A stretch of 64,000 bases of DNA, from assembly GCA_009787405.1 (NCBI GenBank), contig WRGA01000124.1, positions 34,607-98,606 on the forward strand, in the 5' to 3' direction. Source of the stretch: Candidatus Azobacteroides sp. (GTDB lineage Bacteria; Bacteroidota; Bacteroidia; Bacteroidales; WRGA01). Below the pieces are notes generated by a model. It made no database searches. It was given only the letters and a program-made list of their open reading frames with translations, and was not told the origin of the DNA. Shown here piece after piece: positions 1,683 to 2,745 of this stretch. The stretch's first letter is position 1. Each line of letters opens with the position of its first letter. Both the position numbers and the translations under genes were made by a program.

Positions 1683-1688
1683 CCTCGT

Positions 1689-1758
1689 AATTTTTTCATA
1701 GTATTAGATTTAAGGTTAATAACTAAAGATTGGTTGTCGGGATGACAACCTTTTTTTT
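1689..1758 (+). ncRNA. Small-RNA-like unit, copy 1
   Basis: CATAGTATTAGATTTAAGGTTAATAACTAAAGATTGGTTGTCGGGATGACAACCTTTTTTTT. Body shared with copies 2 and 3; ends in hairpin GGTTGTC-GGGAT-GACAACC plus T8. Confidence 0.6.
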
Positions 1759-1866
1759 GCCCGTTTTTCATACAATCTGACTCCTATCCTTATTCTCTTC
1801 TTTTTCAGACTGTACCTTATTGATAAAACCTTTGTACAAAATAAGAGAATATGGATGTCGTAAAAC

Positions 1867-2248: not shown

Positions 2249-2254
2249 CACTGT

Positions 2255-2321
2255 GTTTTTCATGGTATTAGATTTAAGGTTAACAAAAGAAGATTGGTTG
2301 TCGGGATGACAACCTTTTTTT
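2255..2321 (+). ncRNA. Small-RNA-like unit, copy 2
   Basis: CATGGTATTAGATTTAAGGTTAACAAAAGAAGATTGGTTGTCGGGATGACAACCTTTTTTT, with the same terminator as copy 1. Confidence 0.62.
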
Positions 2322-2412
2322 ATTTATACCGGTTCCGTCATGCTTACTTATTAACAATTATTAGAGTAAAAAATTTTGAAATTCAGACCATCCGGACTTA
2401 CCTTTACAGCGT

Positions 2413-2585
2413 GATTTTTCATGGTATTAGATTTAAGGAATTATCACAAAATAAATAGAACACCTAAAACAGCTAATTACCTGTAAATGTGTAATTTAAT
2501 TTATATAAGTGTTACATTTATTTATTGACAATTCTTAAGGTTAACAAAAAGAAAGATTGGTTGTCGGGATGACAACCTTTTTTTT
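2413..2585 (+). ncRNA. Small-RNA-like unit, copy 3, interrupted by an insertion
   Basis: 5' half (TTTTTCATGGTATTAGATTTAAGG, to 2438) and 3' half (TTAAGGTTAACAAAAAGAAAGATTGGTTGTCGGGATGACAACCTTTTTTTT, from 2535) are separated by ~97 bp. Confidence 0.6.
2438..2534. mobile_element. MITE-like ~97-bp insertion with imperfect TIRs and a 5-bp direct duplication (TTAAG)
   Basis: Left end GAATTATCACAAAATAAATAGAACACC. Reverse complement of right end GAATTGTCAATAAATAAATGTAACACT. TTAAG at 2433-2437 and 2535-2539. Confidence 0.65.
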
Positions 2586-2745
2586 GCCCCTACCCTACTC
2601 GATCCGGTTAATTCAACCGTTAATATTTATAGAGAAATCACAAATTATCCTATCTTTGTATTTTAATTTCAGGCGGATAAATTACCAAACCACATTCACA
2701 AAATCATTAACCCGGGATCAACAAACACGAACATCATATTGTATT

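Follow-up and report, generated by a model that had tools for sequence, protein, structure and literature searches.

A MITE-like insertion in the third gene of a tandem FopS small-RNA array of Candidatus Azobacteroides sp.

The draft genome of Candidatus Azobacteroides sp. (GCA_009787405.1) carries an array of three tandem FopS small-RNA genes, the third of which is split by 97 bp of AT-rich DNA. This insert is very probably a small non-autonomous element with terminal inverted repeats that transposed into FopS copy 3. It occupies positions 2438-2534 of the window, i.e., the whole stretch of 64,000 nucleotides of contig WRGA01000124.1 that was analysed, and by direct reading of the letters its G+C content is 22%, compared with 38% for the window.

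The FopS array and the ends of the insert

The three repeated small-RNA units were assigned to FopS (Rfam RF04319) by a covariance-model search. FopS are sRNAs bound by RbpB, and in Bacteroides they inhibit the translation of SusC; Bacteroides thetaiotaomicron has 14 FopS sRNAs, in which an intrinsic terminator comes after a single-stranded 5' seed, R1' (the R1 of GibS in extended form) (PMC11697453). Copies 1 and 2 are intact, while copy 3 yields two part matches, both below the gathering score of 56 bits, and no contiguous RF04319 match above threshold. The features of the locus are as follows:

1687-1760, plus strand: FopS copy 1, intact (RF04319, 69 bits; gathering score 56)
2253-2324, plus strand: FopS copy 2, intact, a paralogous empty site (RF04319, 82.5 bits; gathering score 56)
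2378-2409, plus strand: likely promoter of copy 3, TTTG, about 20 nt, then TACCTTTA (sequence and alignment with other FopS promoters)
2411-2587, plus strand: FopS copy 3, split by the insert (two RF04319 part matches, 2411-2439 with 32 bits and 2509-2587 with 37 bits)
2433-2437, plus strand: left target-site duplication TTAAG (direct reading and FopS alignment)
2438-2534, plus strand: MITE-like insert, 97 bp, 22% G+C, without a transposase gene (direct reading and composition)
2438-2464, plus strand: left terminal inverted repeat GAATTATCACAAAATAAATAGAACACC (21/27 match to the right repeat)
2508-2534, minus strand: right terminal inverted repeat GAATTGTCAATAAATAAATGTAACACT, 27 nt (the insert ends with the reverse complement of GAATTGTCAATAAATAAATGTAACACT)
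2535-2539, plus strand: right target-site duplication TTAAG (direct reading and FopS alignment)
2557-2585, plus strand: intrinsic terminator of copy 3, intact (GGTTGTC/GACAACC hairpin and T run)

The likely -7 box of copy 3, TACCTTTA, deviates at one position from the Bacteroidetes -7 box TAnnTTTG, and its TTTA ending is shared by a copy in the sister species; the corresponding boxes of copies 1 and 2 are TACTTTTG and TACATTTG. Each of the three tandem units, located at 1620-2600 of the window, is equipped with a separate promoter and, upstream, a TTAACAAT block, which suggests that the array arose by local duplication of entire units. Between copies 1 and 2 (1938-1982) the 14-mer CGGACAACATGTCC occurs twice in direct orientation, with starts 31 nt apart. 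The sister species also carries two FopS copies about 2.1 kb apart on one contig (C114). Two further intact FopS genes are located on other contigs of the genome, giving four intact copies in total, and two short RRM-1 proteins, putative RNA-binding partners of FopS, are encoded (E = 3.6e-23 and 5.5e-22). The presence of these additional copies and of two short RRM proteins makes it plausible that this organism has the FopS regulatory circuit.

At copy 3 the left flank, insert and right flank are arranged as GATTTAAG / GAATTATCACAAAATAAATAGAACACC...AGTGTTACATTTATTTATTGACAATTC / TTAAGGTTAAC. The terminal 27-mers agree as inverted repeats at 21 of 27 positions and differ at the other 6, and the TTAAG duplication adjoins their outer ends exactly. 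Direct reading thus reproduced what the first-pass annotation had described, namely the 2433-2539 span, the inverted-repeat ends and TTAAG on both junctions, as well as the separation of the promoter and 5' body from the terminator, both of which persist on either side of the 97 bp. Among 200,000 random 27-mer pairs, generated from a first-order model of local intergenic DNA composition, the best match was 18/27 and the 21/27 of the insert was never reached; identical 5-bp flanks arose in 0.23% of random pairs. Chance is excluded for the inverted repeats and unlikely for the 5-bp duplication. A degenerate terminal pattern allowing up to 3 mismatches matched only the two ends of the insert in the window (expected number 0.00), and these two ends were also its only matches in the whole draft genome.

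Empty sites, further copies and a parent transposon

Comparison with other FopS genes strongly supports insertion of the 97 bp into copy 3, since intact FopS copies lack the insert and copy 3 becomes normal once the insert and one TTAAG are dropped. The insert is absent from all full-length FopS examined, including four in the same genome, five in the sister species (G001), one in another genome of the same genus (G002) and four in a more distant Bacteroidales genome (G023). After removal of the insert and one TTAAG, copy 3 forms an unbroken alignment with 12 other FopS copies; AAGGTTAA is uninterrupted and TTAAGGTTAA contiguous in all the copies aligned. BLAST alignments of the locus to plasmid records stop or split at the insert. 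The idea that the nearby intact copies provide a built-in empty site is sound; the available empty sites are paralogous, not orthologous. An orthologous site was sought via the downstream acyl-CoA synthetase gene, which had no match in G001 at E 1e-100 and is present in G002 with no FopS array upstream.

Further copies with 5-bp duplications, for which the first-pass annotation had proposed a BLASTN search, did not come to light: neither BLAST nor the terminal pattern revealed a second copy in the same genome (a 91% complete draft in 125 contigs), and no convincing copy was present in 60 relatives. Searches of 393 Bacteroidales genomes for the terminal 9-mers, suitably spaced, returned only unrelated, chance-like matches, and phage and plasmid collections contained nothing beyond short AT-rich matches to the insert. 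A search of the 393 genomes for FopS split by a gap of similar length returned only copy 3 and one unrelated match, and the split-FopS pattern gave no FopS-like case among the viral loci checked.

Several candidates were considered and rejected. The weak BLAST matches of the insert in its own and related genomes, read singly, look like AT-rich chance matches. Viral-contig matches to the junction between FopS and the left end of the insert proved to be unrelated sequence, the same one in 5 of 6 cases. A Dysgonamonadaceae MAG (L123) matches one end of the insert over 26 nt, but no partner repeat lies within 4 kb and there is no FopS in the vicinity; this match was judged to be due to chance. The intergenic segment around it (L123:3227-3413, JAIRLY010000373.1) is bounded by 38-nt inverted repeats, 76% complementary and 111 nt apart, and may be a small mobile or palindromic element itself.

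The full-length transposon with GAATTRTCA ends anticipated in the first-pass annotation was likewise not found, no transposon-like pair of such ends being detected in the same genome. The pairs located 2.7-3.0 kb apart on contigs C124 and C125 have no matching 5-bp flanks and differ in their inner ends, and the pair on C124 encloses ordinary genes, including that of DNA polymerase I. Transposases of PF01609 (IS4-type DDE_Tnp_1), the one family tested, are absent from the genome.

The insert has the terminal inverted repeats, the target-site duplication with paralogous empty sites, the small size and the lack of a transposase gene expected of a MITE, but not the multiple copies, within the genome or among relatives (a single copy in a genome that is 91% complete). 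The original designation of MITE therefore stands with respect to insertion, inverted repeats and 5-bp duplication, and falls short with respect to copy number (one in the genome, no convincing copy in relatives); no parent IS was found in searches that covered pairs of GAATTRTCA ends and the transposase family PF01609. The insert is best called MITE-like and orphan, rather than a member of a named MITE family, because it appears as a single copy, no parent transposon was found and the ends of the known Porphyromonas gingivalis MITEs are different. Being a single copy, it also leaves a second mobility event unseen.

About 40 viral contigs (IMG/VR, L055-L117) were found in which a FopS 5' module, GTTTTTCATAGTATTAGATTTAAGGTTAA, precedes terminator hairpins that are diverse and often unrelated. 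The search pattern contained ATTAGATTTAAGGTTAA, so that conservation of this part reflects the way in which the contigs were picked, and the RF04319 cut-off was passed by 7 of the 10 viral contigs tested. Phage-borne FopS looks wider than the one Caudovirales phage in which it was mentioned as a possible vehicle (PMC11697453).

Origin of the insert and predicted effect on the copy 3 RNA

The proposed course of events is that a 97-bp non-autonomous element with imperfect 27-nt inverted repeats was inserted by a transposase acting in trans, the target being TTAAG of the third tandem FopS gene, whose 5 bp would have been duplicated in the process. Among the other origins considered, an imperfect palindrome that template switching or end-joining repair created or captured at the site, 5 bp of microhomology mimicking the target duplication, would accommodate a single-copy element without a known family; it is very unlikely, as a source of the 97 bp was not found in the same genome, a random match of 5-bp flanks has a chance of 0.2%, and the duplication abuts the outer ends of the inverted repeats, a hallmark of staggered-cut transposition. 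An artefact of assembly or binning is highly improbable: three tandem FopS copies in a draft of 125 contigs and 91% completeness, judged from the assembled sequence alone, could confuse assembly, but the insert is unique sequence rather than a repeat, and exact junctions of target duplication and inverted repeat are not created by misassembly. No supporting point was found for an ancestral spacer from which the other FopS copies derive by deletion, and this disfavoured origin has a negligible probability given that intact FopS is insert-free in several genomes and many viral contigs, with TTAAGGTTAA contiguous in the aligned copies. A functional spacer, the meaning that the first-pass annotation would have attached to a single-copy sequence conserved in distant relatives, is unsupported because the 97 bp were found in no relative, although the sequence is indeed single-copy.

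Following the transposition favoured above, transcription starting at the old promoter would yield an RNA of about 172-175 nt, in whose minimum-energy fold (-36.7 kcal/mol, z -3.4) both inverted repeats, extended by both TTAAG, form one long hairpin. The end of the 5' seed, GATTTAAGG, is predicted to be open in the FopS copies of contigs C76 and C99, partly open in copy 2 and mostly paired in copy 3, its unpaired probability being about 0.9 in the C76 copy, 0.4-0.9 in copy 2 and about 0.1 at most positions of copy 3. The R1 bases further upstream, TATTA, remain largely unpaired in the copy 3 fold. For copy 1, pairing is likewise predicted, in the upstream part of the seed, so that this comparison of accessibility has indicative value only. 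With the 3' part of the seed buried in the hairpin, copy 3 would most likely lose its seed function. The mostly paired state of GATTTAAGG in the predicted fold suggests that the redundant copy 3 is probably inactive as a normal FopS. Loss of normal activity is the likeliest outcome; with no fewer than four intact FopS genes left in the genome, such loss would be buffered and tolerated.

The insert could instead have been recruited, making copy 3 a longer two-domain sRNA in the style of GibS, with R1 kept and the new hairpin and loop as a possible second seed. Copy 3 retains an intact promoter spacing, 5' module and terminator, which hardly differ from those of copy 2, the 142-nt GibS has the FopS 5' end in common, and it is the presence of R1 without R2 that sets FopS apart from GibS (PMC11697453). 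The fold of the insert exceeds shuffled sequence in stability (z -3.4), but this stability follows directly from the inverted repeats, and the 5' seed has its 3' part within the hairpin. The insert itself has no similarity to GibS, whose model gives 18 bits for copy 3 and 41 for the intact copy 2, and it is conserved nowhere in the genomes searched. Recruitment is considered very unlikely, and beyond the intact promoter and terminator little speaks for it. It is also very doubtful that the transposed mini-element has made the redundant copy 3 into a new sRNA that is longer, expressed and changed in the exposure of its seed. Such a case would capture sRNAs diversifying by insertion in Bacteroidales, a route by which GibS-like RNAs could arise from FopS.

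Significance and comparison with known systems

The locus offers a clear example of a mini-element that landed within the gene of a regulatory sRNA, with undamaged sibling copies a few hundred bases away as controls, and agrees with the idea that a multicopy sRNA can afford to lose individual copies. Should the RNA that carries the insert prove to be expressed and active, it would exemplify the origin of new sRNAs through insertion into paralogs. For the present, the insertion into copy 3 is a tidy but ordinary event, and the mobilising element was not found in the searches made.

The insert resembles MITE239, MITEPgRS/464 and BrickBuilt of Porphyromonas gingivalis (PMC4596501) in being short, AT-rich and non-coding, in having terminal inverted repeats and a target-site duplication, and in its occurrence within Bacteroidales. 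The P. gingivalis MITEs are multi-copy, and their inverted repeats match those of resident IS5-family elements (GAGACC..., ACGTCAG...) (PMC4596501), whereas the insert in copy 3 has the unrelated ends GAATTRTCA..., a single copy and no parent found. Links between MITEs and sRNAs have been discussed in general (PMC10969869). In Coxiella burnetii, QMITE1/QMITE2 likewise place a MITE downstream of an sRNA promoter and as part of the sRNA; there the sRNA is largely MITE-derived and its expression was measured (PMC5896051), while here a pre-existing sRNA is split, as known from sequence alone. GibS (RF04182) shares with copy 3 the FopS 5' seed region and a longer middle part, but the insert has no sequence similarity to it, and copy 3 scores 18.2 bits against a cut-off of 115. 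The closest relation is to FopS itself (RF04319; PMC11697453). The locus differs from the described FopS in its three tandem copies, the third interrupted by 97 bp, and in that the function in this organism is putative. It shares with them the 5' module GTTTTTCATRGTATTAGATTTAAGGTTAA, the terminator composed of a hairpin and T run, and the multicopy character; copies 1 and 2 are full members of the family, and copy 3 is a member apart from its insert.
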